In this document: positions 4,830 through 37,937 of the stretch, one piece after another
Layout: each line of letters opens with the position of its first letter
How positions within the stretch are numbered: the first letter of the stretch is position 1
Source of the DNA: Methylobacter sp.
Lineage (GTDB): Bacteria; Pseudomonadota; Gammaproteobacteria; Methylococcales; Methylomonadaceae
Length of the DNA stretch: 39,930 nt
Direction of reading: 5' to 3'
Assembly: GCF_030680395.1 (NCBI RefSeq)
Contig: NZ_JAUXVR010000009.1
Location: 1-39,930 of the forward strand
Notes under the pieces: generated by a model
Told to the model about the DNA's origin: nothing
What the model saw: only the letters and a program-made list of their open reading frames with translations
Databases searched by the model: none
Translations under genes and position numbers: made by a program

Positions 4830-5861
4830 CTATGGATAAAGCGCAACACTCTTTAATCCCGAGTCTTCCTTTAGCCCAAACATCAGATTCATATTTTGCA
4901 CCGCCTGCCCCGCTGCGCCCTTAACCAGGTTATCAATCACCGATAACACCACGATAGTTTGACCGCCCTGCGGCCGGTGAATCGAAATCTGGCAGTTATT
5001 GCTGCCCCGTACATTTCGGGTATCAGGATGCGAACCTGGCGGCAATACATCAACAAACGTTTCGTTAGCATATCTTTTTTCGTACAAGGCCTGCACGTCA
5101 TCAGGATTACCGTGCGACTGACCATATAAAGTAGCGTGTATACCTCGGATCATTGGCGTTAAATGCGGTACGAAGGTCAATCCGACCGATTTTCCAGCCA
5201 TCAACTCAAGCCCTTGAGCAATCTCAGGCAAATGCCGGTGACCGCCAACCGCATACGCTTTAAAACTCTCGCCGGTTTCGCTCATTAACGTCGCCAACTC
5301 CGCTTTACGCCCCGCCCCGCTGACGCCCGATTTAACATCGGCGATTAAATGCTTAACATCAATCAGATCGTTTTCAAGTAACGGCAAAAAACCCAGCTGC
5401 ACGGCGGTTGGATAGCAGCCCGGACAAGCGATTAAATTACTCTGTTTAATTGCCTCGCGATTCAGTTCCGGCAAACCGTAAACCGCCTCGGCGATTAAAT
5501 CGGGACAAGCATGCTCCATACCGTACCATTTGCTCCATTCCTTTGCATCTTTCAACCTGAAATCAGCGGAAAGATCGATCACTTTAACGCCGCGCGTCAG
5601 CAACCGCTCCGCCATCAGCATCGCCGTGCCGTTCGGCGTCGCAAAAAACACCACATCGCATTCGGCCAAGGTTTCGACTTCGGGCAAGCTAAATACGGCG
5701 TCGATAAACCCCCGCAAACTGGGATAAAGCGCATCCACTCTAACGCCTGCATCGGCGCGCGAAGTTACAACCGCCACCTCGACATCCGAATGCAACGCTA
5801 AAATCCGCAATAACTCAACACCGGTATATCCGGTTCCGCCCACAATACCTGCACGAATCAT
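4830..5861 (-). CDS. argC: N-acetyl-gamma-glutamyl-phosphate reductase
   Basis: Third step of arginine synthesis: NADPH-dependent reduction of N-acetylglutamyl phosphate to the semialdehyde. The 343-residue product starts [14 protein letters not shown] (dinucleotide-binding GxxGxxG loop) and has the catalytic cysteine in [10 protein letters not shown] (about C149), plus GGHRHLPEI and [11 protein letters not shown] segments. I chose ATG 5861 rather than the longer frame starting at 5879 because AGGA lies eight bases before it and the family starts at this motif. The upstream region once faced the quinone oxidoreductase gene; the defence island now lies between them. Confidence 0.96.
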
Positions 5862-5893
5862 CTGTTTTATCCTACCCACACGTTGTTTATAAA

Positions 5894-5970
5894 AATAACT
5901 GGGGCATATAATAACCGCAACTTGGATTATTGACGATGTTGTAACTATGCCGCTTCCTAATCAGATGATT
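5894..5970. repeat. 77-bp direct repeat, left copy, flanking the defence island
   Basis: Matches 16546-16622 over 77 bp with two substitutions (5943 and 5960). It contains a TATAAT box (5907-5912) and the first eight codons of the quinone oxidoreductase gene. The two copies enclose the five-gene defence operon exactly. Beyond 5970 the similarity becomes patchy (for example TGTTTTAAA and ACGCCGTCA shared), suggesting that this copy has decayed. Confidence 0.95.
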
Positions 5971-6099
5971 ACCAATGAGTGTTTTAAAGTTGAACAAATC
6001 GTTCATTTTTGCAGCTACGCCGTCACCAATGAGATTTTATCTAAGCCGGAGCTAGCCTCAGCACGGTTCGAACAGGATCTGGGGTGTTCATTCAACTAA
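5947..6099 (+). pseudogene. Decayed 5' fragment of the quinone oxidoreductase gene
   Basis: An open frame of 50 codons starts MPLPNQMI, against MPLPKQMI at the intact gene (16599). It then diverges and stops after CSFN, overlapping the end of the HNH gene by 12 bases. The GTG that lies six bases upstream of the ATG in the intact copy is GTA here. By eye, further patches of the intact gene are recognisable to about 6050. I interpret it as the stranded original 5' end of qor left beside argC when the island arrived. It may still be transcribed because the TATAAT box is retained. Confidence 0.65.
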
Positions 6100-7188
6100 C
6101 TCTAGCTCGGCTTTCCATGCAGCCAACCTAGACTGATCAAGCATAGCGATGCATAAAATGCTATGGACTTCGTAATGGGGTTCAGTCGATACAAGATCGC
6201 CTTGTACGTTCTGCAAATGTAGCAGGATTTCGTCCTGCGTATGCCTCGCCTGAGCCCTCATTATCCGGCGTCGCTCGCGTTGGAGCAATACGCCTTGCTG
6301 CTTCGCATATTCCGCCTTGAACTCACGCGTCCAGCGTTTACTTAAATTAAGCAGATTGTCGAGGTTAACGACTTTTGCCGCGTCTGTCGGATTTATTGGC
6401 GCACTAATTATTGAACGCTTTTGCAAATCGTAGTTCAGCCGAATATTACCGTTGGCATGTCGTCGATAAGGATGAAACCAATCTGAAAAGCTACCCTGGA
6501 CGTGAACGGCCTTAGTACCTTTGTTATCGGTGCAATTGCACTCCCCACAGATAGGCAGCAAGTTATCGGCGCAAACGCTCAATAGTGGGTAAACGCTCTT
6601 GGCAATCCAGTGATCTACTTCAATATCTTTAAGTTCGCCTCCGCACAGTACACAAACTTCTCTGGCGCCCGGATTCGGGTTCAGTCGGTGCGTATCGCGA
6701 AATTCTTTGACAAACTGAGCATACGTTACGCCACCGTTAGTCACAGGCGAACCATTCGCTGCATAAGGAAGACCGCTACGAAAGCCCTTCTCGTAGAAAG
6801 CTTCCATTAACTCCCTGAATGCTTGCCACGACATATCGGGAATAGCCGGGCGGGCTATCGGCCAAGCAGGCGAATTGGGTTGAAACTGTTTCTCCAGATT
6901 GCTGACTGCTGCGACCCAGTCATTCAAAAATTCCTTGTCTGCTTGTGACATGGCCGCCACGGCTTGAGCTCTTGAAAGCAAGGGCTTCCCGGCAAGCTCA
7001 CGTTGCAAAAATGCCCAAAGCCAGTCCGCCTCAATTTGCGTGGGAACGCGCGGAGGCATCAGATTGACTTTAACAATGTCCGCCGAACCGACATTCACGT
7101 CGCAAAGCCAAGCCACCAGATGCTCTTGCAGGCGACGGCAGGCACGCAGGGCTGGAGTGCAAGCAATATGACAGATAGGCTTAAGCAT
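6088..7188 (-). CDS. HNH endonuclease, Septu PtuB-like partner
   Basis: Predicted HNH/HNHc nuclease of 366 residues. Two zinc-binding CxxC pairs (C179/C182 and C214/C217) bracket the catalytic VDHW segment (H193) and the N of DNLLPIC (N209), which is the canonical HNH arrangement. The N-terminal 175 residues are helical and of unknown fold; the C-terminal 120 residues carry Arg-rich helices. Its ATG overlaps the end of the upstream ATPase gene by 8 bp, so the two are translationally coupled. An ATPase followed by an HNH nuclease is the layout of Septu (PtuA/PtuB) and related OLD-like systems, where the nuclease is activated on infection. Assignment to Septu proper is an inference from gene order and motifs. 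Confidence 0.75.
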   Translation of the reverse strand: MLKPICHIACTPALRACRRLQEHLVAWLCDVNVGSADIVKVNLMPPRVPTQIEADWLWAFLQRELAGKPLLSRAQAVAAMSQADKEFLNDWVAAVSNLEKQFQPNSPAWPIARPAIPDMSWQAFRELMEAFYEKGFRSGLPYAANGSPVTNGGVTYAQFVKEFRDTHRLNPNPGAREVCVLCGGELKDIEVDHWIAKSVYPLLSVCADNLLPICGECNCTDNKGTKAVHVQGSFSDWFHPYRRHANGNIRLNYDLQKRSIISAPINPTDAAKVVNLDNLLNLSKRWTREFKAEYAKQQGVLLQRERRRIMRAQARHTQDEILLHLQNVQGDLVSTEPHYEVHSILCIAMLDQSRLAAWKAELELVE

Positions 7189-9010
7189 GACCCTTCCATT
7201 TATTCAACAGCGTACGCAACTCACTACGGTAGAAGCCGGAGCCCATGCGGGCAATCAGTTGCTCTAATTGCTGGATGTCAGCCTCAGTACCGCTGGCTAA
7301 GCTTAATTTTTCCTCAATAAATTCTTGCGCCCGCTTACCGATGCTGTCTTCGGCTTCGAACACAGTCATCATCAGGGCGCTGGGGTCAGTGGCGAAGGTT
7401 TGTTCAGACACCGACCGAATCACTGAACCGTCGGCGGTCTTCTGCATCATCACGATTTCATCATTGAACACATCGCTTAATACGATGGCCGAATGCGTGG
7501 AAATCAGTACGTCGTTGGCGGTGCGGCCAATAGCGGCGTCAATGATGTCGACGATTTCCCGCTTCCACTTGTCGTTAAAATGCGTCTCCGGCTCGTCCAA
7601 TAACAATAAGGCATCCTGCTGTCCTTCCAGCAAATGGAACAAGGCCATACGTCCCAACACCATTTGCTCGCCGTCGGACAATTCATCAAAGCGAATCAAA
7701 TCGTCGGTATCGTCTTTGCGGAGACAAAACGAAATTTCAGCAATCAAACCTTCTTCATGCAAATCGCAAAGCCGTTGGAAGCGTTCATAGGCGCTGAAAT
7801 TGTTCTCGTTGCCTATCAATGCCTGCAAGGCGTGGCCTTGCGTCTTCTCAGTAACTTGCCGCAGCTCTTCCATTCCCGGCGCATCCGGCACAAGGTCGGG
7901 ATCGAAGTCTCCGCCAATATCGTAGTGGAGGATACGCAAGCTACTGGGGTTCGGCTGCGCAATCACTTCCCCGGCGGCATAAAACCACGGCAGCAAGCGG
8001 CGTAATTTCTTCTCGGGCAGTCTATCGGGCTGAAAATCAATCGTCACAGCGACTGAAACAGGCCACTTCCAACCGGCTCTGCTCAATAACTCACGTAATA
8101 TCTGGTTTGACGGATCAGGCTCTACAGTCCCGGAAAAAACATCTTTCAGCCCTACCGGCAAAGCCACAGAAAGCACCGCAAACTTAAGCAGCTCGGGCGT
8201 AACCAAAATAGGTTCCCAGGCCTTTGAACCAATATCCTGAGCTAACTGCGCCATTTGATTCATCTGCTCACTATTAGCTTCGCTGTCTTCGTCCTGTAAC
8301 AAGATTTCATTCAGCAGATGTTCGTGTTCTTTATCTCTATTCCAACCGGGAGGCCGCTCACGAGTCGAGTCGTATTCATCAGACTGGGACACTAGATCGA
8401 CGCCTTCGCTGTCAGAGTTGCGCTCCCAAAGGCTTTGCCACGAAGCCAGCGCACCGGTGGTGTAAGCCAGCACAGTGCGCGGCAAATAAGGTAGCTGTGC
8501 GGTACCTCGCCCACTGGGCCAATTTCCGGGCGCAATGACCGCACGGAAGCCGTGCGGCAAGGGCTCAAAAGCCGCCTGCTTGGCATACAACGACCGAATC
8601 AGCTCTTCAAAATCGTCATTGGTGGCTGTCGGCAGGAAGGTAAAACTCTCGCTCACCCAAAGCGCAGGCTCTAACTGTTCTTCTTCACGCAGTGCCGACA
8701 GAATAACGGTTTGACGTTGGCTTCCTCCTACAACGGCTTCATTACCCACAATATATTGATCCACAACAGGGGCCGGACGATCCCGCCCGAGTTCATAGAC
8801 CAAAGAAACCGGAAAGTGAGGCGCGCACCAATCGGCAAGCGACAAAAACACTTTGCTAATAGCCCGTAAAAGATGGGATTTACCGCTGCCGTTAACCCCG
8901 ACAACAAAGCGAATCGCACATAATCTATCGAGCGGCGAATGGCTGGAGAAAACAATTTGCGCTTTGTTTAGCGGCGGATAATTACGGATATGCAGGTAAC
9001 GCAACTTCAT
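7181..9010 (-). CDS. ABC/SMC-like AAA ATPase, Septu PtuA-like
   Basis: 609-residue ATPase of the AAA_15/AAA_21 (OLD/RecF-like) type. Seen: Walker A GVNGSGKS (residues 38-45), the ABC signature LSDGEQM near 442, Walker B LLLLDEPE near 465 and the switch histidine in STHSA near 502. The region between Walker A and the signature (about 60-430) is long, as in PtuA-type proteins, and includes an acidic stretch around residue 235. No TOPRIM motif is evident, so it is not a classic OLD nuclease; nuclease activity would come from the HNH partner. It overlaps hsdS by four bases (ATGA) and the HNH gene by eight. The known family role is phage sensing and control of an effector; the trigger here cannot be read from sequence. 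Confidence 0.8.
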   Translation of the reverse strand: MKLRYLHIRNYPPLNKAQIVFSSHSPLDRLCAIRFVVGVNGSGKSHLLRAISKVFLSLADWCAPHFPVSLVYELGRDRPAPVVDQYIVGNEAVVGGSQRQTVILSALREEEQLEPALWVSESFTFLPTATNDDFEELIRSLYAKQAAFEPLPHGFRAVIAPGNWPSGRGTAQLPYLPRTVLAYTTGALASWQSLWERNSDSEGVDLVSQSDEYDSTRERPPGWNRDKEHEHLLNEILLQDEDSEANSEQMNQMAQLAQDIGSKAWEPILVTPELLKFAVLSVALPVGLKDVFSGTVEPDPSNQILRELLSRAGWKWPVSVAVTIDFQPDRLPEKKLRRLLPWFYAAGEVIAQPNPSSLRILHYDIGGDFDPDLVPDAPGMEELRQVTEKTQGHALQALIGNENNFSAYERFQRLCDLHEEGLIAEISFCLRKDDTDDLIRFDELSDGEQMVLGRMALFHLLEGQQDALLLLDEPETHFNDKWKREIVDIIDAAIGRTANDVLISTHSAIVLSDVFNDEIVMMQKTADGSVIRSVSEQTFATDPSALMMTVFEAEDSIGKRAQEFIEEKLSLASGTEADIQQLEQLIARMGSGFYRSELRTLLNKWKGHA

Positions 9011-10698
9011 GATGCAGTGCCTGCTTCATGACTAATGCTCTCTAACGATGCTTGCAAAGCAGCAATATCGTTGAGTCGGGATTTTTCCTCCGGCCGCAAT
9101 CGGCGATAGCCAGTAACAAAGTCGCCGTTGTCGTTGGGTAATGCCACCTTGGCGATCAATCCCAAAGCGGCAAGCTGTTCCAGTGCGCGCTTGACTCGGT
9201 CGTGCATATTACGCTCGTGCTCAATGGGCCATAGCCGACAAAACTCATCAAGATCGGAAGCATTATCGGCAAGTAACGTTCCCTTCCACTCACGCATGGC
9301 ATCAAGCACAAATCCCTGAAATTCGCTCAACTCATTGAGTAGCCAGTAGCGCGTGGGGCGGGGAAAATCAGCGGAGCGTTCAGGTGGAGCGAAGACTTCG
9401 GTGCGAATAGATACTTTAGCTCCGCGTTCGCGCAGTATTTGATCTCTTTCGATTATTGCGGCTTCAATCTCTTTTTGATGTACTTCTCGCCACTTCTCGG
9501 TCAGTTCACCAGAAAGCGCAAAGACTGTCAGCTCCGACTGAAGTCGCTTGGCAATTCGCTCGGACTGAGAAATAAGCTGTCGCAATAATCTAACCTCGTG
9601 CCAAAACGCGGCGAACTTCTTTTGCTCAGAAATCGCTGGTAGCGGAATTCTGATTTTTGTCAGATTTTCGCCACTCAAATTGCTCTGACCCGCTGTTGTG
9701 CGAATCGTATTGCGCATTGCTGCTCTGCCAAATGTACTATTGAGAAACGAGCTCAAATACTCTGGAAGCAGCTGCTCTGTGTTGGTACGTAAACGAATCA
9801 GGTAGGACGCATAAACCATCCCCGCCTTTACAATATCTTCCGTAATGGGCGCTGAGCGGCCAACGTAATCAGGATTACCGTTTGATCGGACAATAAGCAC
9901 ATCGGCTTTGGTTAAAAGCAGTCGATCCAATTCAGCCGAGGACAACCCAACGTATTTCATATCTGTCGTATCGACTTCACCACCCATCACGTTCGGAATA
10001 CGAAGAACTGGTGTACCGAAACCAATCTCTTCATCTGCCGAAACAGACGTGCCATAACGAGTTTCAACGAGGGTGCCGAGTTGTACCCACTCGACTCCAT
10101 CAACGCCCAGGACTAACCGATCAAGATAAGCCTTGATCATCAAGTTGAGTTGTCCACTTCGTGCTTTTTGCCGAGCAACTAGCGCTTCAGCCTGCTGCAA
10201 CACATCGACGATACGCTGTTGTTCAAGGAGAGTTGGGAGCGGAATTATCATCGATGCGAGGTCAGACTGCCGAATATTCTGAATGTTGGCGCCTTGCACT
10301 TGTCTATCTCTCCAAGCTCGAAAAGCTGGCGAATCTAGCCAACAAGATAAATATTTCGGTAACAGGACATCTGGCTTGGCTCGAATTACCGCATTGAAAG
10401 CCCCCCATGTTCCATCAAAGTCCTCCTCCAATATCGCAGATTTGCCGACAATCGAGGAACTGCCCGATGACATGCATACAACAATGTCATTCTTTTTCAA
10501 TCGCTGTGCATCGGACACGAAAGACGAAGAAATCCAGACTAAATCACGATCAATGATTAGTCTATCTTGGATATTTCCTGCTCGAAGAACGGACACTGCG
10601 TCTGGCATTGGGCTGGAAAAGACGTCACCTTGCGAGAAAGTCACTCCACGAACGATTTGCGCCAGTGATGGTGCTAGGCGCACATGAGGCCAACTCAT
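9007..10698 (-). CDS. hsdS: Type I restriction-modification specificity subunit with C-terminal extension
   Basis: DNA-recognition subunit shared by methylase and nuclease complexes. Two target-recognition domains are visible (about 1-165 and 195-375), each followed by the conserved helical spacer (LPTLLEQQRIVDVLQQAEALV near 175; LPAISEQKKFAAFWHEV near 365), so it should read a bipartite site. At 563 residues it is about 100-150 longer than usual HsdS. The extra C-terminal part (from about 445) is a separate Arg/Glu-rich helical domain with a winged-helix look (DRVKRALEQLAALGLIAKV). It overlaps hsdM by four bases (ATGA) and the ATPase gene by four bases. The extra domain might contact the ATPase/HNH pair, which is speculation. 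Confidence 0.93.
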   Translation of the reverse strand: MSWPHVRLAPSLAQIVRGVTFSQGDVFSSPMPDAVSVLRAGNIQDRLIIDRDLVWISSSFVSDAQRLKKNDIVVCMSSGSSSIVGKSAILEEDFDGTWGAFNAVIRAKPDVLLPKYLSCWLDSPAFRAWRDRQVQGANIQNIRQSDLASMIIPLPTLLEQQRIVDVLQQAEALVARQKARSGQLNLMIKAYLDRLVLGVDGVEWVQLGTLVETRYGTSVSADEEIGFGTPVLRIPNVMGGEVDTTDMKYVGLSSAELDRLLLTKADVLIVRSNGNPDYVGRSAPITEDIVKAGMVYASYLIRLRTNTEQLLPEYLSSFLNSTFGRAAMRNTIRTTAGQSNLSGENLTKIRIPLPAISEQKKFAAFWHEVRLLRQLISQSERIAKRLQSELTVFALSGELTEKWREVHQKEIEAAIIERDQILRERGAKVSIRTEVFAPPERSADFPRPTRYWLLNELSEFQGFVLDAMREWKGTLLADNASDLDEFCRLWPIEHERNMHDRVKRALEQLAALGLIAKVALPNDNGDFVTGYRRLRPEEKSRLNDIAALQASLESISHEAGTAS

Positions 10699-13229
10699 TC
10701 CCGTTCCTCCACCATAACCAACAGTTTGTCCAAATCTCTGATAATCTGCTGCTCGGTTTGGAGTAGCTCACCTATTAACTCCACCACGCTTTTGTCGCTT
10801 TTGAGCTGTGTGAGATCAAAAGGTTTGTATTGCCCGGCGGAAAGATTCCAATCGCGGGCTTCGATACAATCGGGGTCAAGCAGGCCATCTTTCAACTGCC
10901 CCTTTTCATCATAGAGCCGCTTAGCCAACATGGTCTCGACGTATTGCGGACGCACCAAGCCGTTGGCGTCGTGCGAGCCTTTGAGACTACCGTCGGCCGA
11001 TTGCCACTCGTCATTAAGCAGCCATTCGCGCACCGGCACCACCCAATGTTTGGCAGCGGTAAGATCAGTCTCTTGGTCGATGGCGAGACTACGCAATGTA
11101 ACATCGAAGCCATCAAGCTTGGCGACTTCACGAGCTAAACCTAACAAGCGATTTTTAAATTTACCTTCGTCGAGCCTTGGGTCGAAACTAATGGTTGGCT
11201 GACCCTGCTTATCGGCAGTTAACTTGACGTTCTGCTCGGCGCTACTATAGGCATCTATAGACAACCAATCGCTATTAATACTTGATGTAATTAAATCATT
11301 CCAAACTTTTAATGCAGGCGAGTCATCAGGCTCAAACAATCCACGGCAAGCATTAGCTAGGCGCTTGGTCTCAGTGATAAATTTCGAATAAGCCTTTGTC
11401 AGTTCCGTGTTTTCTTTTGAGTTCAATGTACTTTTTATGTGTGCTGGGGCAATGTAATCAGCAAGCCGATCTGTAAGTAGCTCTTCCAAATCATCTCTTA
11501 CTTTTTCACAAATGAAGCTTTCAGCCTCCTTTGGATCGGTCGGCAGATCAGAAAATAATTCATGGATGCCCCAAACCTGACCGTCCCACATATTGGTGTC
11601 GGGCAGCGCTGCAAAAGCTTCCCCAGCAGGGGTAAGTTTGTCAGCGGTATCGCGCAACAGTGCTTGCCTCCAGCGCTCGGGGTGAAAACTCGGTTGCAAC
11701 AAGGTCTTCTCAAAGCGCTTAGCGCCGGTACGGCCTTCGCTCTTCCATATCTTGAACTTGACCAGCGCATCCCACAGATCGTTGCGCTGACCAGGACGGC
11801 CGTTGCGCTTGGCATCGCGCGTGAAACCATCTTCTTCGACCTCGTAAAACCAGACGTATTCGGTACGCGGGTTCTGGCCGGTAAAACTTTGCTTTTCCTC
11901 GCGGCGGGTTTCCTTACGAAACAGCAGAATAGAGGTTTTGACGCCGGTATAGGGCTGGAACACGCCGCCCGGCAGCGAGATAACCCCTTCCACGACATGC
12001 TCGGTCAGCAATTCGCGGCGCAGACTTTTATGGGCATCGGTATTGCCGAACAATACGCCTTCGGGAATGATGACAGCGCAGCTACCGCCGACGTCCAACA
12101 AATCCAGCATCAGCCACAAAAACAGCAATTCGCTTTTGTTGGTCAGCGCATCGTCTTTTTTCTTGCCTCCGCCTCCGACACGAGGAAAAAGGAGGGAATC
12201 TTTCTCCAAATCGTTGGTATCGACGGTGCCGGTAAATGGCGGATTAGCCAGCACGAAATCGTAAGACTCGGACTTGAGCAGTTCGGCCAGTTTGGGCTTG
12301 CCGTCGCGTTTGCTCAAGGAATCGCCTTGCAGTAGATGCGGGTCGGTGACGTCGTGCAGCACCAGGTTCATCCAGCCGATGCGGGCCATGGTGCGGTCGT
12401 TGTCGAGGCCGACGAAATTGGCGCCATGGTGGATAGCGGCGTACTGCTCCTTCGTGGCTCCTGTGCCATGAGCTCGATGCGGCGTTCCATCCCATTCCAG
12501 CAGCACAATATCTTGCGCGGAATACTTGCGCATCAGGTATTGCTGGGCACTGAACAAAAAACCGCCCGTACCCGCTGCCGGATCGATGATGCGCTGACCG
12601 GGTTCCGGATCAAGTAACTCAACCATGAATCGGATCAAATGGCGCGGGGTGCGGAACTGGCCGTTCTTACCAGCCGTGGACATCTCGCTGAGCAGGTGTT
12701 CAAAGGTGTCGCCCATAATGTCTTGAGCGGCGGAACCGTCGCCCACGCGAGCGAACAGCTGGTCGATCAGATCGATGGCATCCCCCAGCACTTGGCCTTT
12801 GTTGGGGTCGAGCTGGAAATAAGCGTCGGCCATGCGGTTGTTAAGACTGCCTAGCTCGGTGTCGTTATCATCATTCGTTAAACGCGCCTCGATTCCCCGC
12901 AGCCAAGGAAAGACCCTTTCAATCAGATGCGCAGGGTTGGTCTTTTCTTGACGGATATAGCTCCAGCGGCAAGGTTCCGCATCAAGCTGCTTGCGTAGCG
13001 CCTCGCGCTTTTCCGGCGGTGCGGCTTGAATCTGGGCTTGTTCTGCCGCTGTCAGTGCATAAATTGACGGCAGTTTTTTCTCGATACGTTTCTTATCGAT
13101 GTCCTCCAGCCGTTTGAGAAACAGCAGGTAGGTGATTTGTTCGACGGCAACCAGCGGGTTGGTCAGACCGGCGGACCAAAATCGGTCCCAGAGTTTGTCG
13201 ACTTTTTTCTTGATGTGTGGGGCGAGCAT
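10695..13229 (-). CDS. hsdM: Type I restriction-modification N6-adenine methyltransferase subunit
   Basis: Adenine methylase of the type I complex. Seen: HsdM N-terminal helices (HIKKKVDKLWDRFWSAGLTN at residues 4-23), SAM-binding motif DPAAGTGGF near 215 and catalytic NPPF near 327. The product has 844 residues, much longer than the common 500-residue HsdM; the last 300 residues form an extra domain with no motif I recognise. I chose ATG 13229 rather than 13265 because AAGGAA lies nine bases upstream and MLAPHIKKKV is the usual start. This places it 19 bp after hsdR and removes an overlap. Confidence 0.95.
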   Translation of the reverse strand: MLAPHIKKKVDKLWDRFWSAGLTNPLVAVEQITYLLFLKRLEDIDKKRIEKKLPSIYALTAAEQAQIQAAPPEKREALRKQLDAEPCRWSYIRQEKTNPAHLIERVFPWLRGIEARLTNDDNDTELGSLNNRMADAYFQLDPNKGQVLGDAIDLIDQLFARVGDGSAAQDIMGDTFEHLLSEMSTAGKNGQFRTPRHLIRFMVELLDPEPGQRIIDPAAGTGGFLFSAQQYLMRKYSAQDIVLLEWDGTPHRAHGTGATKEQYAAIHHGANFVGLDNDRTMARIGWMNLVLHDVTDPHLLQGDSLSKRDGKPKLAELLKSESYDFVLANPPFTGTVDTNDLEKDSLLFPRVGGGGKKKDDALTNKSELLFLWLMLDLLDVGGSCAVIIPEGVLFGNTDAHKSLRRELLTEHVVEGVISLPGGVFQPYTGVKTSILLFRKETRREEKQSFTGQNPRTEYVWFYEVEEDGFTRDAKRNGRPGQRNDLWDALVKFKIWKSEGRTGAKRFEKTLLQPSFHPERWRQALLRDTADKLTPAGEAFAALPDTNMWDGQVWGIHELFSDLPTDPKEAESFICEKVRDDLEELLTDRLADYIAPAHIKSTLNSKENTELTKAYSKFITETKRLANACRGLFEPDDSPALKVWNDLITSSINSDWLSIDAYSSAEQNVKLTADKQGQPTISFDPRLDEGKFKNRLLGLAREVAKLDGFDVTLRSLAIDQETDLTAAKHWVVPVREWLLNDEWQSADGSLKGSHDANGLVRPQYVETMLAKRLYDEKGQLKDGLLDPDCIEARDWNLSAGQYKPFDLTQLKSDKSVVELIGELLQTEQQIIRDLDKLLVMVEERE

Positions 13230-13248
13230 TGAATGGTTTTCCTTAGGT

Positions 13249-15981
13249 TTAAGCGGCTTCGTCAACTAATTGGTTGGCGAAAGCAACGAGTTCTTCTATA
13301 TCCTGCGGCGGAAACAACGATTCGACGCGGCCGACACGCGACAGCGGCGGTTCGCTGAGCGCCGCGCGAGTAATGCGTCCGTGGCGTAGTACCGCGGTTT
13401 TTACCGCGCGCAGGAAGGTGAGTTGATTGGCGCGCAGGTAGCCGTGCTGTGAGATAAAGCTGTCGAAAGCGGCGTTGATGCGCTGTTCCCGGTTGGGCAG
13501 ATGGGCGTATTCACAGAGGATGTGGCGCAAGAAATCGGCGAGCGAAGCTGCGGGGTGCTCGAAGGCTTTGCGCAATGTGTCTTCGGTGACGAATAAATCG
13601 GTCCGGTTAAGCGTGGCGGCGATGCTGTCGAGTTCATCGTCGGATAAATTCTCGCCGCTCTTGAGCTTAGCCAATGCCGGCAACTCGTCCGCCAAGCGCA
13701 GCACCAGCGCCTCAACCTGTTCGCGATAACTTTCGGCAAAAGCGCCTTCGCCGGTGGGGCCGTAAATAATCCAACTGCGTTGGCTGATGGTATCCGGCAA
13801 ATTGATTTCGACCGTGGTATTGGGCGTAGAGGTGCGGTAGCGCATCAACGGTGCAAAAGTGGCTTGCAATGCGGCAAGCCTGGACAAATCGAGGTGCTGC
13901 CAAAAGCCTGCCGAAAGCACCCAGGCGCGTTGTTCTTGAATGCGTTGCACTTCGGGAATGTTGTCGGCGAGACTAGCGACGGCCTCTTGAATGCGCTCCA
14001 TCACTTTGGCCTGTTCGGTCTCATCGGATTTCAACCACGCAACGGTAAGCCGTTCGCACCAGACGCGAAATTGCAATTCATCCAGGCCCGACAGCGGCGC
14101 GAGACGCATCAACGGCGCGATGGTTTGCGAGAGATGTTCTTGTACGGCTTGGCTGGGCGTGGGCCACTGTTGCATCAAGGCGTCTAGCTCATCCCAATGC
14201 GGCCGCACGTTGATGCTCTGACGCGGGAGTGCGGCAAGCATGGCTTGTAACTCGGTTACAGTGGGCTCGTTGTCGAGTTGCTGTGCATGCAGGAGTAGCC
14301 ACTTTTCCAGGCGTAGCCGGAATAAACGCACGGGCAATGGCTCACTGGGGTGATCGACCTCGCCGTCTGGCTTGAGCTTGAAATAAGCGAAGTTCTTCCA
14401 ATGGTCGATAATCAGAAAGTCCTTTTTAACTTTGCCGCTCGCCTTGTCGGTGTGCAGCCGAGTGCCGCGCCCGATCATTTGCCAGAATTTGACGCGGCTG
14501 AATACCGGCTTGGCAAACACGAGATTCTGGATGGCGGGCACGTCGACGCCGGTATCGAGCATGTCCACTGAAATGGCGACACGCGGCATGGTTTTATATT
14601 TGAAGTCATCCAGCGTGGCATCGGCGCGTTCCATATGACTGTCGATGATCTCGGCCATGCCTTGCCGTTGCAGTTCCGGATAGAGGCGATTGAAACTTTC
14701 GTACAGACGCTTGGCATGGGCGTGGCTGACGGAAAAGATGATGCTTTTGTGCGGCAGGCCGCGAACATCCTTGCGGCACTTGTCCATGAACTCGCGAACC
14801 ATCGCATCGTTGGTACCTTGGTTGACGATGCCTTTTTCGATGTCGCTGCCGTCGAAATTGAGCTCGTCCAGTTCCACACCTTGATCTCGGGCCATTTTCT
14901 TTAAAGGTTCCGGCAGCGCATCGCCCTGAATGCCTTTGATTTGGAAGTTGGTTTGCGCATCCAGCACACGATAGTTGACGAGGTTCTTATCCTCAATGGC
15001 TTGATCGTAGCTATAGTAATAGCTGGGCGCGCCGTCGCCGCAATCGAAGAGCTCAAAGGTGTTGTGGTCAATATAGTCGGTCGGTGTAGCGGTGAGGCCA
15101 AGTTGAATCGCATCGAAATGGTCGAAGATGGCTTTATAACGCTGGTAAATCGAGCGGTGACTTTCGTCAGCGATGACCAAGTCGTAGTAACCGACCGAGA
15201 GGCGTTCGTATACCTGCATCATGCTGGGATAGGTGGAAAACTGGATGCGCGCGCCGGATGTCTCGCCGCTTTCGATGCGGGCGAGGCTCTCGTTTGGAAG
15301 GTGAGTTTTGAACTCGGACATGGCTTGTCGCACGAGTTCCCGGCGATCTGCCAAGAACAATACTCGCTGTACGCGCTTGGCGCGCAACAGAGTGTCTACA
15401 AGGGAAATGGTCGTGCGGGTTTTGCCTGTGCCGGTTGCCATTACCAGCAGAAACCGGCGTTTGGCGGCATCGATCCCTTCCGTGACGCGACGGATAGCTT
15501 CGTTCTGATAAACGCGATCCGCAATATCGGTATTGATGGCTACATCATGCAAGGTCTGTGCATAGCGCTGTTGGTGTCGCAGCCGCTCAAGATCATCCCG
15601 CGTGTAGAAACCTGCAACTTTTCTGGGTGGATAGCGGTCTCGATCCCAGAACTGGATTTCTTTGCCGTTGGTTAGAAAGATGAAGGGATCAACCCCAAAT
15701 TTGGCTTTGATGGCGTCCGCATAATCGGCCGCTTGGCGTTTGCCTGAGAGTTCATCACGAGATGTGCGCTTAGCTTCGACCACGGCAAGGGGTATTCCAT
15801 CCGAACCCAGTAAGACATAATCGGCAAACTGCTCGTTGCCGTATGCCCCGCTCGGATCTGCTGTTTGGAGCAAGACTTCTTCGATGAGCGTTCGTCGACT
15901 TTTCGACCAACCCGCGCGAGCGAGTTGGCTGTCGATTAATTCAGTCCTGGTTAAAGACTCATTACGATTAAGACCGGACAC
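13249..15981 (-). CDS. hsdR: Type I restriction-modification nuclease/translocase subunit
   Basis: ATP-driven DNA translocase and nuclease of a type I system, closest in layout to the EcoEI-type R subunit. Seen: PD-(D/E)xK nuclease in the N-terminus (D54 and VVEAK with E69/K71), helicase motif I MATGTGKT (181-188), motif II DESH (272-275), motif III GLTATP near 296, motif VI QMIGRGTR near 505, and the helical C-terminal assembly domain. Length 910 residues. It starts at GTG, supported by GGAGG eight bases upstream. It is the first gene of the five-gene operon; its promoter must lie in the 15982-16545 region. Confidence 0.95.
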   Translation of the reverse strand: MSGLNRNESLTRTELIDSQLARAGWSKSRRTLIEEVLLQTADPSGAYGNEQFADYVLLGSDGIPLAVVEAKRTSRDELSGKRQAADYADAIKAKFGVDPFIFLTNGKEIQFWDRDRYPPRKVAGFYTRDDLERLRHQQRYAQTLHDVAINTDIADRVYQNEAIRRVTEGIDAAKRRFLLVMATGTGKTRTTISLVDTLLRAKRVQRVLFLADRRELVRQAMSEFKTHLPNESLARIESGETSGARIQFSTYPSMMQVYERLSVGYYDLVIADESHRSIYQRYKAIFDHFDAIQLGLTATPTDYIDHNTFELFDCGDGAPSYYYSYDQAIEDKNLVNYRVLDAQTNFQIKGIQGDALPEPLKKMARDQGVELDELNFDGSDIEKGIVNQGTNDAMVREFMDKCRKDVRGLPHKSIIFSVSHAHAKRLYESFNRLYPELQRQGMAEIIDSHMERADATLDDFKYKTMPRVAISVDMLDTGVDVPAIQNLVFAKPVFSRVKFWQMIGRGTRLHTDKASGKVKKDFLIIDHWKNFAYFKLKPDGEVDHPSEPLPVRLFRLRLEKWLLLHAQQLDNEPTVTELQAMLAALPRQSINVRPHWDELDALMQQWPTPSQAVQEHLSQTIAPLMRLAPLSGLDELQFRVWCERLTVAWLKSDETEQAKVMERIQEAVASLADNIPEVQRIQEQRAWVLSAGFWQHLDLSRLAALQATFAPLMRYRTSTPNTTVEINLPDTISQRSWIIYGPTGEGAFAESYREQVEALVLRLADELPALAKLKSGENLSDDELDSIAATLNRTDLFVTEDTLRKAFEHPAASLADFLRHILCEYAHLPNREQRINAAFDSFISQHGYLRANQLTFLRAVKTAVLRHGRITRAALSEPPLSRVGRVESLFPPQDIEELVAFANQLVDEAA

Positions 15982-16545
15982 AATTTATCCTCCCTGCCTT
16001 AAACACCTCAAATCCCTCGGTTAACCAAAAATAGCGAAGCGCAAAAATTTCACGGCGACCAAATGAAGCATTTTTTGGATTAAAAGGTTTGAGCAGACTT
16101 TCCATGTTTCAAATTGTAATGCTGAATATATGCTGTAATTGCCGAGTGACCATTGAGATATTTGAACCAAGCTCGCCTCATTCTAACATTCCCACCCCGC
16201 AAACTTCCCTCTAAATTTGTATCTGCTATTTTTGGATTTCAATAAAATAGCTGTAAAGCAATTCCATTGGTTTACATTCAAACATTAAAATTCTAGTTAT
16301 AATTTTTCAAGCAAACATGCAATCCATCAGCAGAAAGTTAAATTCTGAACCATGCGCATTGATTGCAGATATGAATGACTAAATTCAGCGATAAGTCGTA
16401 AACACTTCAACATCCATGCCCTACTCAATGATAAACCCGCTTTTGAGTATATTCGGTATAACAAACTTGGCTTCGGCTTTTGAGAAATCCGTTTAAACCC
16501 TTCTAATCCGTGCCATCCGTGTTCCATTATTTAAGTTAGCATCTC
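15982..16545. other. AT-rich intergenic region upstream of hsdR, with a dispersed repeat
   Basis: No gene is supported in these 564 bases. It must hold the leftward promoter of the hsdRMS operon, but I see no convincing -35/-10 pair. Bases about 16485-16527 are a dispersed-repeat type seen in many bacterial intergenic regions, recognisable by AATCCGT followed by CCATCCGTG. The 66-codon minus-strand frame over it is judged spurious. Confidence 0.5.
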
Positions 16546-16622
16546 AATAACTGGGGCATATAATAACCGCAACTTGGATTATTGACGATGTTGTGACTAT
16601 GCCGCTTCCTAAACAGATGATT
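16546..16622. repeat. 77-bp direct repeat, right copy, flanking the defence island
   Basis: Partner of 5894-5970 (two mismatches). It covers the TATAAT box (16559-16564), the leader and the first eight codons of the intact quinone oxidoreductase gene. Sequence left of 16546 is unlike that left of 5894, so the repeat edge marks a junction of the inserted segment. Confidence 0.95.
16559..16564 (+). promoter_or_regulatory. Likely -10 box of qor, retained in the duplicated segment
   Basis: Perfect TATAAT 35 bases before the qor ATG. The duplicated segment begins 13 bases upstream of this box, so the -35 region differs between the two copies (near 5886 on the left, near 16538 on the right). Neither candidate -35 matches TTGACA well, so promoter strength at the present qor may differ from the ancestral one. 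Confidence 0.5.
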
Positions 16623-17582
16623 GCCATTGAAATTGAAAACGGTGTTTTAAAACCGGTTCAGCGCGCCATACCGACGCCGTCAGCTAACCAGGTGTTAATT
16701 AAGGTAGCTGCCGCCGGTGTCAATCGACCCGATGTGATGCAACGCAAAGGCCTGTATCCGGCTCCGTCCGGCGCATCCGACATTCCGGGACTTGAAGTTG
16801 CAGGAACGATCGTTGCGTTGGGCGACAACATCAGTCAGTTACATGAAGGCGACAGGGTCTGCGCACTGGTGTCCGGCGGCGGTTATGCCGAATATTGCCT
16901 TGCTTCAACGGCCTTATGTCTGCCCATACAGGAAAATCTGTCTTTTAACGAAGCTGCCGCATTGCCGGAAACTTTTTTCACCGTCTGGAGCAATGTTTTC
17001 GACCGCGCCCATTTGCAGCCCGGCGAAACGCTACTGGTGCATGGCGGCAGCAGCGGCATAGGCACGACGGCGATACAACTGGCCAAAGCCTTCAACGCCA
17101 AAGTCATAGTCACGGCAGGCTCAAACGAAAAATGCGAATTCTGCCTGCAACTCGGTGCCGATGGCGCTATCAACTACAAAGAGCAGGATTTTGTTGAGGA
17201 AACAATGCGATTTACCGACAACAAAGGCGTCGATGTTATCCTGGACATGATCGGCGGCGACTATTTCCCGCGTAATCTAAAATGCATGACCGACGACGCC
17301 CGACTGGTGCAAATTGCCATCCAAAACGGCCCGAAAGCCGAAATAAACCTGTTGCCTGTCATGCTTAAACGGCTCACTCTGACCGGCTCTACATTAAGAG
17401 CCAGGGACGATGCTTTCAAAGCCGCAATCGCGGGCAGACTGATTGAAAAGGTCTGGCCTTTATTAGCATCCGGACAAATCAAACCAGTTATACACTCAAC
17501 TTTTGCGCTCATCGACGCCGCCTTAGCCCATCAACTCATGGAAAGCAGCCAACACATCGGCAAAATCATCTTAACGGTATAG
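16599..17582 (+). CDS. NAD(P)H:quinone oxidoreductase, zinc-less MDR family (QorA/PIG3-like)
   Basis: Medium-chain dehydrogenase/reductase expected to reduce quinones with NADPH in the cytoplasm. Seen: N-terminal GroES-like fold with GVNRPDVMQRKGLYP (about residues 45-59), the NADPH-binding glycine motif HGGSSGIGTTAIQLAKA (about 147-163) and no structural-zinc cysteine cluster. The product has 327 residues from ATG 16599; an in-frame GTG at 16593 would add two. The PSGASDIPGLEVAG segment is typical of the PIG3/TP53I3-like branch. sseA begins four bases after its stop, so the two form an operon. Its 5' end is the sequence duplicated on the far side of the defence island. Confidence 0.88.
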   Translation: MPLPKQMIAIEIENGVLKPVQRAIPTPSANQVLIKVAAAGVNRPDVMQRKGLYPAPSGASDIPGLEVAGTIVALGDNISQLHEGDRVCALVSGGGYAEYCLASTALCLPIQENLSFNEAAALPETFFTVWSNVFDRAHLQPGETLLVHGGSSGIGTTAIQLAKAFNAKVIVTAGSNEKCEFCLQLGADGAINYKEQDFVEETMRFTDNKGVDVILDMIGGDYFPRNLKCMTDDARLVQIAIQNGPKAEINLLPVMLKRLTLTGSTLRARDDAFKAAIAGRLIEKVWPLLASGQIKPVIHSTFALIDAALAHQLMESSQHIGKIILTV

Positions 17583-17586: not shown

Positions 17587-18432
17587 ATGACTTACACGAC
17601 ACTCATTTCCACAGACGCGCTCCACCAACAACTTAACAATCCCGACTGGATCATCGTCGACTGCCGCTTTTCATTAGCGGATACCGAAGCCGGTGCCCAA
17701 GCCTACCGGCATGGGCACATCCCCAATGCCCGCTACGCCCATCTGGACAAAGACTTGTCCTCGGCGATCACCGACTTTACCGGCCGCCATCCTTTGCCGA
17801 ACTTTGCCGTATTGGCAAAAAAACTGGGCGACTGGGGCATAACCAATACCAGTCAGGTTGTTGCTTATGACGATGCAGGCGGCGCTTTCGCAGGCCGCCT
17901 CTGGTGGCTATTGCGCTGCATGGGCCACGACAAAATTGCGGTATTGGATGGCGGTATCAAGCAATGGCAAAAACAAGGCCTGCCGATCACCACAACTTTG
18001 CCTACTGTTAAACCCGTCACATTCAGGCCGTACCTGAACGAAGCGGCATGGCTGACTGCCTTACAGGTGCAAAACAGTCTGTCCAAAAAATCAATTTGCC
18101 TGATCGACGCCAGAACACCTGAACGCTATCGCGGCGAACAAGAACCTATCGATCCGGTTGCAGGTCATATTCCCTATGCATTAAACCGGGCTTTCCAATT
18201 AAACCTGGACAGCAATGGCTTGTTTTTATCGGCGGAACAATTGCGCGAACAATTTAAACAGCTAATCGGCTCTAACGCGCCCGAACAAGTCGTTCATTAT
18301 TGCGGTTCCGGGGTCACCGCTTGCCATAACTTGCTGGCGATGGAATATGCGGGATTATCCGGTTCCAAGCTTTATGCGGGATCATGGAGCGAGTGGATCA
18401 GGAATAAAAACCGGACGGTTGCTAAAAACTAA
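17587..18432 (+). CDS. sseA: 3-mercaptopyruvate / thiosulfate sulfurtransferase (two-domain rhodanese)
   Basis: Tandem-rhodanese protein of 281 residues that moves sulfane sulfur to cyanide or thiols. The catalytic loop is CGSGVTA with C239; this loop is characteristic of mercaptopyruvate sulfurtransferases, while classical thiosulfate rhodaneses usually have CRKGVTA. The first domain is the inactive structural copy (AGGAFAGRLWWLLRCMGH near residue 97), and GHIPNARYAHLD marks the conserved entry. It is coupled to the quinone oxidoreductase gene by a four-base gap. It lies near the sulfide-oxidation cluster, though with an independent promoter, which fits a role in handling persulfide sulfur. 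Confidence 0.9.
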   Translation: MTYTTLISTDALHQQLNNPDWIIVDCRFSLADTEAGAQAYRHGHIPNARYAHLDKDLSSAITDFTGRHPLPNFAVLAKKLGDWGITNTSQVVAYDDAGGAFAGRLWWLLRCMGHDKIAVLDGGIKQWQKQGLPITTTLPTVKPVTFRPYLNEAAWLTALQVQNSLSKKSICLIDARTPERYRGEQEPIDPVAGHIPYALNRAFQLNLDSNGLFLSAEQLREQFKQLIGSNAPEQVVHYCGSGVTACHNLLAMEYAGLSGSKLYAGSWSEWIRNKNRTVAKN

Positions 18433-30614: not shown

Positions 30615-32903
30615 TTACCCCCTTCCCGACATGCCCCCTGTCACGATATGAGCTATACCCCGATCCCTGACATCCTGCCCTACATCGGGAGCTGGCATGT
30701 TTACGGAAATACTTCTGTTTAAATCACTACCCAGCGGCTGTATTATCGGCGGCGCTTCAGCAATGGGCGGCGGCGGTGCAAATGTCGGCACTTTTGGCAT
30801 TGATGTCGAAGCCGTTTGTACTTGGGTGTTTACCGGACCCGCTGCCAGTTGATGATATAGCGGCATATAGTTTGCGTTTATGGCATTGTATCGACCGCCT
30901 TGAGTTGGATCGTCGGACGTTGAGGCTACGGCGGGGGCTGGAGTTTCGGCAAGATGCTCATCTTTTGCTAATTTTGCGTTGATCGCGTCAACCGTTTCTG
31001 TCATAGCGGTAGCTGCTTGTTTTGCGTATGTCGCCGTCGATGTTCCGTTACCATCTGTGCTTTCAATGCCGTTTTTAAACAACTTATTCGCGCCGCCCAC
31101 GCCTTTCAAATGCGCAGCTTTAGAATATCCGGCTATCTTTTCAGCAGAATCGCTATTAGAAATAGCTCCACTCCTAATTCCGCCAGCAACATTTTTATTG
31201 GTGTATTTGACGAACGCCTTATCTTGCGCCCCTTTATCTTGCAAAAAGGAATCTAATCCGCCTTCGGTATTCCAGTTAGATTTATCACGTAAAAACGCCT
31301 CATGCCCTCCAATTTCTCCGCGTGAATTGCGTTTTTTGTACCAATCTTTACCGGATGCTTTTTTGGCTTCTTCCAGCTTGTCTTGCTTTACCAATCCACT
31401 TTCTACCAGAGCTTCGGCTCCAAACTGATATTGGCCGAAATAACCTTGTTTATTATCTGCGTCTATTTTACCGCCGCTCTCTGTTTTTGACGTATTCGCG
31501 GCTAATGCTCTTGTTTGAACATCGCTAAGCCCGGTGATTTGATCTCCGCCTTGGAAATTTAGCGCCGCCTCGACTTCGTTAAATTTAGCGCGTCTGGATA
31601 TATTGCTAGCGCCCTCTTTTATCTTATCCCAGGCATTGCCCAGCGCCTCGGTGGTTTTCGGTGAACTTTTCTGTACTGCATCAACCGCCTCGTTGGCGGT
31701 GTTTTTCGCTATATCGGCACCGGCATTAACGGTTTCTTTTGTGGCCTCTACCGCTTTTTCGCCTGCGTCAACAACGGGTTTTAAGATAGCCGGAATATCG
31801 ATACCGAACTTGTCTTTAAGGAACCCTGTAAAAGCATCCCAAGACGACACCATGCCGTTAATTAGGCTATCGAAACCACCTTTTACAGTATCCCAGCCCT
31901 TACCGATTGATTCCGTTATCGGTGCAAATGCGGTAACGACAACATCCCATCCGGCAATAAGCTTAGCCCCGACCTCACCAAAGAACTTCTGTCCACTCTC
32001 CGTAAATAAGCCCCAGGCAATCGCTGAAGCCGCGCCAATAGCCAAGCCGATAGGCGAAAAAATAATACCAAGAACAGAGCCTATACCGGTAAGAAGTGCG
32101 CCACCCAGTCCGGTAATAGCCGCCATAATCCATGGTGAAATACTGCCTAACAACCCGCCAAGAAAGCTTTGATCACCATCGCCACCACCGCCTGGGTTGT
32201 CTTCTATATTATGCAGGCTCCTATTAGCCGCCCGGTTGAATACGGATTCATCTTTTCTAAAAAGATTCAGCTCCTTGAATATTTTCTTGTACCAGCGCTC
32301 TTTTTTGTCGCCACCGCCGCCGGTAAATATTTCGTAACCACGGCGCATGGGTTCAGCGACTTCCTGGAACGCCTTTATAGTAGGATCGGCCTCTTCGACG
32401 CCATTGGTAGACTCTTTTACCGCTGTGGTAATACTGTTTGCAACGTTACTTAGAAAACTACTCTGGTCTTTCTTTTTCTTTTTATCTTCTGGGTCTTCAT
32501 CAGGCGTATCTGTTGGACTTGATGCTTGATTACCTGAACTCCTGTTACCGGAAAATCTGCCTGAAGCATCGCGACCTCTCCCGTTTGGGATGACGGTTCC
32601 CCCTGGGCTTTCCGGCGGAAATACACTACTGGATGTACTGCTACTTCTTGGCCTATTTGGAGTTGCCACGCCGCTATTGTCGGCACTGCTTTGTCCGCTT
32701 GCCGACGAACCCCTATTGCGCGCATTACTGCCGCCGCTGGAGCTTCTTGAATGATTGTTATCGCGAACATTCGCAACCGCTCCGAGCAGCGAGCGTTTAA
32801 TGTCTCGAACATCTATTCTTATCTGCTTGAGCTGATCAACGGCTCTACTTAAATCTACCGGGTTGCCGGTTAAAAAACCTTGTGAATCGGATTGAAGTGC
32901 CAT
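30615..32903 (-). CDS. Large phage-type protein with disordered N-terminus, membrane-active core and lysozyme-like segment
   Basis: 762 residues, last gene of the element's main operon. Order: coiled N-terminus (LSRAVDQLKQIRIDVRDIKR); a Ser/Gly/Asn-rich disordered stretch (about 45-150); a hydrophobic Gly/Ala core (about 245-305, GLGGALLTGIGSVLGIIFSP) as in tape-measure or membrane-puncturing proteins; an Ala/Lys helical region; and a domain near 465-610 with KTESGGKIDADNKQGYFGQY. The E-S-G-G...GYFGQYQFG pattern is that of goose-type/SLT lysozyme-like domains, with E as candidate catalytic acid. The tail is Pro-rich. It resembles a virion-associated lytic or tape-measure protein, but no other tail genes are present. 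It could instead be an exported anti-host or anti-helper effector. Confidence 0.6.
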   Translation of the reverse strand: MALQSDSQGFLTGNPVDLSRAVDQLKQIRIDVRDIKRSLLGAVANVRDNNHSRSSSGGSNARNRGSSASGQSSADNSGVATPNRPRSSSTSSSVFPPESPGGTVIPNGRGRDASGRFSGNRSSGNQASSPTDTPDEDPEDKKKKKDQSSFLSNVANSITTAVKESTNGVEEADPTIKAFQEVAEPMRRGYEIFTGGGGDKKERWYKKIFKELNLFRKDESVFNRAANRSLHNIEDNPGGGGDGDQSFLGGLLGSISPWIMAAITGLGGALLTGIGSVLGIIFSPIGLAIGAASAIAWGLFTESGQKFFGEVGAKLIAGWDVVVTAFAPITESIGKGWDTVKGGFDSLINGMVSSWDAFTGFLKDKFGIDIPAILKPVVDAGEKAVEATKETVNAGADIAKNTANEAVDAVQKSSPKTTEALGNAWDKIKEGASNISRRAKFNEVEAALNFQGGDQITGLSDVQTRALAANTSKTESGGKIDADNKQGYFGQYQFGAEALVESGLVKQDKLEEAKKASGKDWYKKRNSRGEIGGHEAFLRDKSNWNTEGGLDSFLQDKGAQDKAFVKYTNKNVAGGIRSGAISNSDSAEKIAGYSKAAHLKGVGGANKLFKNGIESTDGNGTSTATYAKQAATAMTETVDAINAKLAKDEHLAETPAPAVASTSDDPTQGGRYNAINANYMPLYHQLAAGPVNTQVQTASTSMPKVPTFAPPPPIAEAPPIIQPLGSDLNRSISVNMPAPDVGQDVRDRGIAHIVTGGMSGRG

Positions 32904-32932
32904 TGTTTTACCTTTAATATTTTGTTAATTGA

Positions 32933-33322
32933 TTAAAAAGGGTCATGCTCGATTAAAATGCCAAGCCTTTCGCGCCTACCGATTAACATTTGGTCGCGTT
33001 TGGCGGCTTCTTCAAGAGCTTTTTCATAAATACCATCCAGCACTTCTTTTGCCGGAAATACATTCAGGTTGATTTCTTGCGGATCAATCGTTATTGCCGA
33101 CCTTCCGAAGCCCCGGTCCAGAATTTCTTTGCAGGCTCCTAATACGATATTAGGCGGCGTTTCTTCGTTTCTGATTAGCGTGGTAAGGACATTAAGAGCC
33201 TCTTCACCGTACTCGGCTGCGACTTGCTTTAACTTAAACGTCAGCTTATTGGGAACGTTCTTTTTGCGCCCGGCCCCCAACCGCTTGCCGCCGCGCTTTG
33301 AATTGCTTGTTTTAGATGTCAT
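32933..33322 (-). CDS. Small DNA-binding protein, terminase-small-subunit-like (DUF5681-type), paralogue 1
   Basis: 129 residues. The N-terminus KRGGKRLGAGRKKNVPNKLT is the RGGxRxGAGRKKG motif common to many phage small-terminase-like and DUF5681 proteins. It continues with AAEYGEEALNVL and KEILDRGFGRSA, shared with the next gene upstream. It is basic at the N-terminus and acidic/helical at the C-terminus. Tandem duplication with the 118-residue gene is evident by eye. No large terminase is present, so if it acts in packaging it would have to redirect a helper phage's enzyme, as in phage satellites; that role is inferred. Confidence 0.7.
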   Translation of the reverse strand: MTSKTSNSKRGGKRLGAGRKKNVPNKLTFKLKQVAAEYGEEALNVLTTLIRNEETPPNIVLGACKEILDRGFGRSAITIDPQEINLNVFPAKEVLDGIYEKALEEAAKRDQMLIGRRERLGILIEHDPF

Positions 33323-33401
33323 TTGATATAGTTTTCTATTTATTCAAACCGAAAAAAGCTGTGCTTATCAAGCTGGGCGTAGGCTGTGGCTGGTTTTGAT
33401 T

Positions 33402-33758: not shown

Positions 33759-33770
33759 CTGAGCCTCCTT

Positions 33771-34337: not shown

Positions 34338-34346
34338 GGTTAACCT

Positions 34347-35530: not shown

Positions 35531-35619
35531 TATTTTGCCCTTTTTTGATAATTGCTAAGTGAGATAGATTTTAAATTGATTTATTTGCCCATCTTTCGGG
35601 ATTTTCCGTTTTTTGAAAA

Positions 35620-35847: not shown

Positions 35848-35849
35848 TT

Positions 35850-37790: not shown

Positions 37791-37813
37791 GTTACTTCCT
37801 CGTAAGGTGTGCG

Positions 37814-37833
37814 CCGTATCGGAATCGATACGG
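37814..37833. promoter_or_regulatory. Operator-like palindrome upstream of the AlpA operon
   Basis: Perfect 8-bp arms CCGTATCG (37814-37821) and CGATACGG (37826-37833) with a GAAT centre, 24 bp before the alpA start. The centre-to-centre symmetry fits a dimeric regulator such as the XRE-type proteins of the operon. No clear promoter hexamers were found next to it. Confidence 0.55.
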
Positions 37834-37937
37834 ACTGTGGCTAAACTTTAGCGCTTGTTTTTATGCTTGTAACGTGGGTAAGGGGGGGTAAAGGTAGGTA
37901 TTATAGGTAGGCAAAATAATCTTCATGTAATTGAAAT

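Follow-up and report, generated by a model that had tools for sequence, protein, structure and literature searches.

A defence island at the argC-qor junction of Methylobacter, bracketed by a duplicated qor start: a candidate decayed integrative element

The window analysed here, a stretch of 39,930 nucleotides from Methylobacter sp. (contig NZ_JAUXVR010000009.1), carries a defence island between the core genes argC and qor, which is bracketed by two copies of the 5′ end of qor. Within the genus, the duplication is tied to occupied junctions, the cargo differs from island to island, parts of the island ends are shared, the -35 region of qor is altered in most occupied loci, and no recombinase was found in five complete islands. 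The account that fits these observations best, with a probability of about 0.5, is a decayed integrative element at the 5′ end of qor. On this account, defence cargo would repeatedly have come to occupy the argC-qor junction of the genus, making it an insertion hotspot.

The window displays the following features between argC and the gene behind qor:
4830-5879, minus strand: left flanking core gene with Pfam semialdehyde dehydrogenase domains, which we take to be argC (N-acetyl-gamma-glutamyl-phosphate reductase)
5894-5978, plus strand: left copy, native argC-qor spacer and promoter with a truncated, apparently vestigial qor start; 81/85 identical to the right copy, left flank matching empty sites
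5978-6027, no strand assigned: left inner end, common to the G013 island of different cargo (50 bp, 80%)
6088-7188, minus strand: PtuB / PDC-M01B-like protein, 366 aa, last operon gene (PADLOC PDC-M01B 2.1e-13, PtuB 5.5e-07)
7181-9010, minus strand: PtuA-like / restriction-associated AAA ATPase, 609 aa (PADLOC PtuA 1.8e-33; NCBIfam TIGR04435 restrict_AAA_1 2.4e-32)
9007-10698, minus strand: HsdS specificity subunit (Pfam Methylase_S, PADLOC Specificity_I)
10695-13265, minus strand: HsdM methyltransferase subunit (Pfam N6_Mtase and HsdM_N)
13249-15981, minus strand: HsdR restriction subunit, EcoAI-like (Pfam ResIII, EcoEI_R_C, HSDR_N; PADLOC REase_I 7.8e-145; NCBIfam restrict_EcoAI 1.4e-84, below cut-off)
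16402-16542, plus strand: right inner end, common to G013 (143 bp, 88%) and partly to G021
16536-16541, plus strand: putative replacement -35 hexamer TTAGCA from the island end (TTAGCA-17-TATAAT, 10/12 to consensus; a consensus match only)
16546-16630, plus strand: right copy with the TATAAT box and the initial qor codons, running on into intact qor (repeat search, assembly search, alignment)
16593-17582, plus strand: qor (quinone oxidoreductase), intact, 329 aa (Pfam ADH_N and ADH_zinc_N)
17587-18432, plus strand: gene adjoining qor in nearly all loci compared (tblastn synteny)

The sequence-only reading had placed 77-bp direct repeats at 5894-5970 and 16546-16622, of which the right copy continues into intact qor and the left copy decays. 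This layout is borne out. By direct count 75 of the 77 positions are identical, and the match extends to 85 nt (95% identity, spacing 10,652), forming the largest family in a direct-repeat search of the window. A search with 16540-16640 in its own assembly (4.36 Mb, 49 contigs) matched two places only, with no third match at E ≤ 0.001; the second place has an E-value of 5e-33, so the pair is not due to chance. The TATAAT box and the initial qor codons are present in both copies. On the right, the sequence continues into an intact ORF for a zinc-binding dehydrogenase, in which an in-frame ATG is seen by inspection at 16599; on the left, about ten codons follow qor before the copy diverges through small gaps. 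The intact ORF is consistent with the earlier proposal that qor was kept functional. Between the two window copies the promoter parts are identical at 52/53 positions and the coding parts at 41/52. The near-identical promoter parts point to a recent duplication event or conversion at this locus.

Between the repeats, five genes overlapping head to tail on the minus strand encode HsdR, HsdM, HsdS, the PtuA-like AAA ATPase and the PtuB/PDC-M01B-like protein. The three Hsd subunits carry the family domains of a type I restriction-modification system. With hsdR-M-S, an AAA ATPase gene and a PtuB-like gene arranged in this order in a single operon of overlapping genes, the cargo resembles both the type I systems with an AAA ATPase (NCBIfam TIGR04435) and Septu PtuAB (PADLOC). 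However, the TIGR04435 match of the ATPase reaches 112 bits against a cut-off of 300, and its partner matches the PtuB models over part of its length only, more weakly than PDC-M01B, and gave no match in Pfam and NCBIfam scans. Five other homologues of the ATPase were found at E ≤ 1e-40 in 237 family genomes. An HsdS-like gene lies beside a distant homologue in all four loci long enough to tell, and in the fifth, where the contig breaks off, the ATPase is followed by a homologue (69%) of the PtuB-like protein. From these neighbourhoods, the ATPase appears to move together with the type I system. As the earlier reading had it, the island lacks an integrase or transposase: none of the five genes has a recombinase or transposase family match, and a genome-wide PF00589 search found nothing between the repeats.

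The junction was compared in 23 genomes of the genus, which is taken to be methanotrophic, with the window genome designated G000. Five harbor a complete island with a left copy between argC and qor, namely G000 (10.7 kb), G010 (8.4 kb), G021 (8.3 kb), G001 (6.3 kb) and G013 (3.7 kb). A left copy is also present in G003 and G022, in which argC and qor lie on different contigs. In nine genomes (G002, G004, G005, G006, G007, G009, G011, G016 and G020) argC and qor are adjacent with a single qor start. Four (G008, G014, G015 and G017) have the two genes on different contigs and no left copy was found in them; G012 and G018 could not be assessed. The second copies of the qor start in G000, G021, G013, G001, G022, G010 and G003 all begin at query base 7. 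Since G021 is assembled in three contigs, the island architecture is unlikely to be an artefact of draft assembly. The proposed association of the duplication with the island is supported: the nine adjacent junctions have one copy, and two copies without an island between them, a state that would have argued against the association, were looked for among the 23 genomes and not found.

Three of these loci deserve separate mention. In G019, a 90% complete genome without a qor match, a decayed qor-like fragment was seen by eye beside argC (L166, upstream of argC). In G022, about 27 kb of other genes take up the region from argC to the downstream core genes (L118, L168, L170), from which qor and its partner gene are absent. 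In G003 (L125:263-760) qor lies behind a Phd/YefM antitoxin gene and, by eye, the apparent end of a RelE/YoeB-type toxin gene, and the native promoter is gone.

Outside the genus, the gap between argC and qor is at most 700 bp in 81 of the 110 genomes with both genes among the matches listed; in 8 of the remainder the genes are further apart on one contig and in 21 they are on different contigs. Genomes for which just one gene was listed (20 with argC only, 21 with qor only) are left out of the 110. No left copy was detected in 10 genomes with argC and qor apart, in which 4.0-6.0 kb upstream of argC were checked. A weak match near argC in G106 (35 bp, 80%, E 0.001) has the orientation opposite to a left copy. 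The same duplication outside the genus was rejected on the genomes checked. The adjacent arrangement in most of these genomes, together with the lack of left copies in the separated genomes checked, indicates that adjacency is probably ancestral. Among the genomes compared, the repeat-flanked island is seen in this genus only. Other inserts do occur at the junction: G036 contains 2 kb with GNAT, FMN-binding and GFA genes, its argC-side flank lacking a qor start by eye, and in another genus a 17-kb stretch separates argC and qor (L211 of G184), the 6 kb upstream of argC containing no second qor start.

The proposed check for other cargo at the same site had a positive outcome in relatives: the cargo is unlike in all five complete islands and defence-type in each. 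In G021 it consists of a C5-methylase, Vsr and a HEF-type kinase and receiver, with an HTH_32/DDE_3 transposase-like pair inside. G010 contains another type I restriction-modification system, the toxin-antitoxin genes HigB and BrnTA, and Abi_C; G001 a DUF2357/PD-(D/E)XK protein, a McrB-like AAA protein and a WYL protein; and G013 one KAP/QatA-like NTPase. The cargo of the partial island of G003 is less clearly defence. Three different cargoes are found in G000, G021 and G010, which are close relatives on the argC tree. In G006, whose argC-qor junction is empty, G021-type cargo is located directly downstream of the qor operon (L202:1246-7639), with identities to G021 of 82% for Vsr, 42% for the receiver, 72% for the kinase and 95% for the methylase. 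A repeat around this cargo was looked for and none was found. Cargo can thus arrive near qor by another route.

The five complete islands contain 31 non-overlapping ORFs of 70 aa or longer, and a Pfam scan of all of them detected no integrase, resolvase or relaxase family. Matches to PF00589 are likewise absent from these islands and number 6 to 23 per genome elsewhere in the 11 genomes searched; judged by length and rank only, some of them are probably XerC/XerD. Nor was an integrase-bearing element found between argC and qor in the readable genus genomes. Within the window, a phage integrase is encoded at the edge (39082-39897), in a prophage-like minus-strand stretch (30615-39930) with PHROG matches to replication-initiation, regulator and tail-related families. 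As a candidate for the enzyme of the island, this integrase is unsupported, though not disproved: it is located about 22 kb downstream in that prophage-like region, and the genome contains two matches to the qor core.

A phage or plasmid source carrying the qor core was sought and rejected. Of 201 family genomes, 11 match an exact core pattern, every match lying at the argC-qor locus. An 18-mer of the qor core was found in two viral contigs, each time where a phage gene of one and the same type begins, with other phage-like ORFs nearby; from the sequence, these were judged to be chance matches. Two longer exact core patterns had no match in viral contigs, and BLAST of 16520-16700 against phages and plasmids was without match. 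The whole qor gene matched 82 plasmid records, none covering 80% of the query; the best 20 of the 82 align from query base 147 or beyond, within the coding region.

Parts of the island ends are shared despite the different cargoes. In addition to its similarity to G013 over the whole right inner end, the window shares 64 bp (88%) of the right end with G021 and the last 17 bp exactly with G001. At the left end, 253 bp (84%) are common to G001 and G021 and 66 bp (82%) to G021 and G022. The right end of G022 resembles the others by eye and gave no match in BLAST. A repeat of about 80 bp, at about 16456-16534 of the window, is dispersed through the genus, with at least 60 matches in G003, at least 56 in G002 and 3 in G000 including the query. 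This undercuts the shared right end as a recombinase site, and only the last 10-20 bp before the repeat copy and the longer window-G013 match count as specific. The shared left end (L112:6535-6830, L127:5745-6020) encodes a small protein whose relatives elsewhere adjoin a zeta-toxin-like gene (L193, L195), and which is perhaps an orphan antitoxin.

The right junction also bears on qor itself. In five of the seven right copies, those that start at the same base, a hexamer TTAGCA, TTATCA or TTAACA (TTANCA) is positioned exactly 17 bp from TATAAT. This putative new -35 element is sequence just outside the repeat and matches the consensus better than the native one: native sites have at most 3/6 matches at -35, and none of ten reaches 4/6. 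The earlier statement that the island duplicated, or brought its own copy of, the qor start therefore stands in part. The duplication is tied to the island, but the right copy differs from the native start in that island sequence makes up its -35 region. A promoter scan recovered the rebuilt promoter of the window (10/12), one of 4 sites in the stretch versus 1.9 expected in shuffles, and found none at the left copy on the qor strand. In most occupied loci the working qor gene thus appears to be driven by a promoter derived partly from the island end.

The geometry of the locus, with the native flank outside the left copy, cargo inside and the intact gene on the right, is that of a single crossover. 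Homologous integration of the Campbell type would involve a circle with cargo and a fragment of a related qor start; one recombination with the chromosome would generate direct repeats of the fragment, and one copy was later trimmed by decay. Such a route needs no recombinase, and the location of the G021-type cargo in G006, beyond the qor operon, could follow from loss of the other copy of a tandem duplication. It is nevertheless a less likely explanation than the decayed element, since the common starting base of five of the seven right copies, four of them with BLAST-detectable shared sequence outside, makes several independent captures unlikely; moreover, a circle of this kind was not found in the viral contig, phage or plasmid sets.

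The history of the copies was addressed by alignment. The left copies keep the native argC flank and the right copies of five genomes have the island flank. At three sites, states common to at least three of the seven left copies are absent from the native and right copies used, a pattern reached in 21 of 5000 label permutations (58 columns, relatedness ignored, G010_R left out as its promoter aligns poorly). Shared right-only states were not significant (165/5000 for three or more copies, 803/5000 for two or more). An 11-bp deletion removing the start codon is common to G010 and G003, which are not sisters on the argC tree. The left copies hence appear to share ancestry across species, which speaks against wholly independent insertions: at least some occupied loci do not seem to be fresh independent events. 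Rather, they look partly inherited or exchanged as units while the cargo turns over.

These shared states also bear on recurrent insertion by a recombinase acting in trans, in which the islands would be non-autonomous and would depend on an integrase, encoded at another place in the cell or by a helper element, to recognise their ends. Conserved ends with completely changing cargo, the patchy occupancy on the argC and qor trees, and the PF00589 matches outside the complete islands all fit this explanation. Yet derived states common to the left copies in the promoter part would be unexpected if each were the host's own relic, and the confinement of the exact core to the argC-qor locus among 201 family genomes, its absence from viral contigs and the lack of a phage or plasmid BLAST match count against recurrent insertion, a rival less likely than the decayed element.

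If homologous recombination within the two flanking genes, argC and qor, instead exchanged whole islands, the junction would be an ordinary core-gene-flanked hotspot and the repeats a relic without continuing role. Conserved flanks, variable defence cargo and the lack of an integrase are as in hotspots without mobile elements, as far as these are described in the consulted parts of PMC5635113 and PMC10250203. However, genomes sharing a junction are not unusually alike in their flanks, with partners ranking 3 to 17, out of 23 for argC and 21 for qor, when the first 150 bp of each gene are compared, a windowed comparison whose power is limited by one genome per species. Exchange through the flanking tracts is accordingly without direct support, and this reading is considered very improbable. 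Unusual divergence of qor was dropped as a sign of exchange, because the empty sister pair G020-G011 has a similar qor/argC ratio as read off the trees.

According to the preferred account, that of a decayed element, an ancestral integrative element would have entered the 5′ part of qor, carrying its own qor promoter and first codons. At the far junction a working qor (the right copy) would have been rebuilt with a -35 box from the element end, while the host's original start would have been left as the truncated relic now seen as the left copy. That the element no longer encodes a recombinase would reflect an original site-specific event followed by loss of the enzyme. The two ends may persist as a chassis between which cargo is replaced by homologous recombination, and empty sites may arise by clean deletion between the repeats, as such deletion would yield what empty sites look like. 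The new qor promoter presumably works. Several observations stand against this account: no integrase-bearing element was found at the site in the readable genus genomes and no source was found in viral contigs, phages or plasmids; the right copies of G010 and G003 lack TATAAT at this position and have no rebuilt promoter; and the near identity of the promoter parts in the window is as compatible with a recent duplication or conversion as with an old relic.

Judged by its sequence, the site is a defence hotspot with a duplicated, apparently re-promoted target-gene start, and is closest to a cis-mobilizable element (CIME) or to an enzyme-less, SXT-like 5′-end integrant. Some integrative elements that enter the 5′ end of a gene supply a new start, e.g. 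SXT/R391 in prfC; there the target gene receives its 5′ end and promoter from the element, and the old start lies at the other junction. The island-borne -35 in five of seven right copies corresponds to this at the sequence level. In contrast to SXT/R391, no integrase or other site-specific recombinase and no transfer genes were found here, and the islands measure 3.7-10.7 kb and carry defence cargo. CIMEs, including the integrase-less ssrA islands of Dehalococcoides, are similar in holding cargo between two pieces of a target gene, with no integration or transfer genes found and many cargoes at one site, as described in the consulted parts of PMC5704250 and PMC3146451. Correspondingly, repeats of the target site flank the cargo here like attL and attR, a putative role, and none of the 31 island ORFs matched a site-specific recombinase or relaxase family in the Pfam scan, a transposase-like pair being present inside the G021 island. 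The differences from CIMEs as portrayed in these sources are that a partner element with the enzyme was found neither at the site in the genus genomes nor, by any relevant core match, in the viral, phage and plasmid sets, and that a metabolic gene is targeted here, at its 5′ end, with part of its promoter exchanged. Core-gene defence hotspots of E. coli and P. aeruginosa likewise combine fixed core flanks with variable defence cargo, some sites being without a detectable mobility gene; a duplicated target-gene start with a rebuilt promoter is an anatomy not mentioned in the consulted parts of PMC10121019 and PMC10250203. No paper on this argC-qor site was found in a small search of a partial collection.

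As a tentative generalization, the islands might be integrase-less mobile defence cassettes that use a captured qor start as an address, each bearing at one end the promoter region of qor, its first codons and a -35 box, so that insertion would rebuild and re-promote qor. Moved by host recombination or by a recombinase in trans, they would allow the genus to swap its defences at one fixed, harmless site. According to the part consulted of one study, many novel mobile elements lacking an integrase would be very surprising (PMC5635113).

For the many turnover hotspots that have no integrase, it is debated how the cargo gets in. The site described here occurs within a single genus both empty and with different loads, its ends are defined, and a scar can be read in a gene that stays intact. 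Distinct predictions, open to testing, thus follow from trans-mobilisation, from Campbell integration and from flank exchange. The rebuilding of a promoter at the junction suggests a simple way in which an island may spare its target gene.
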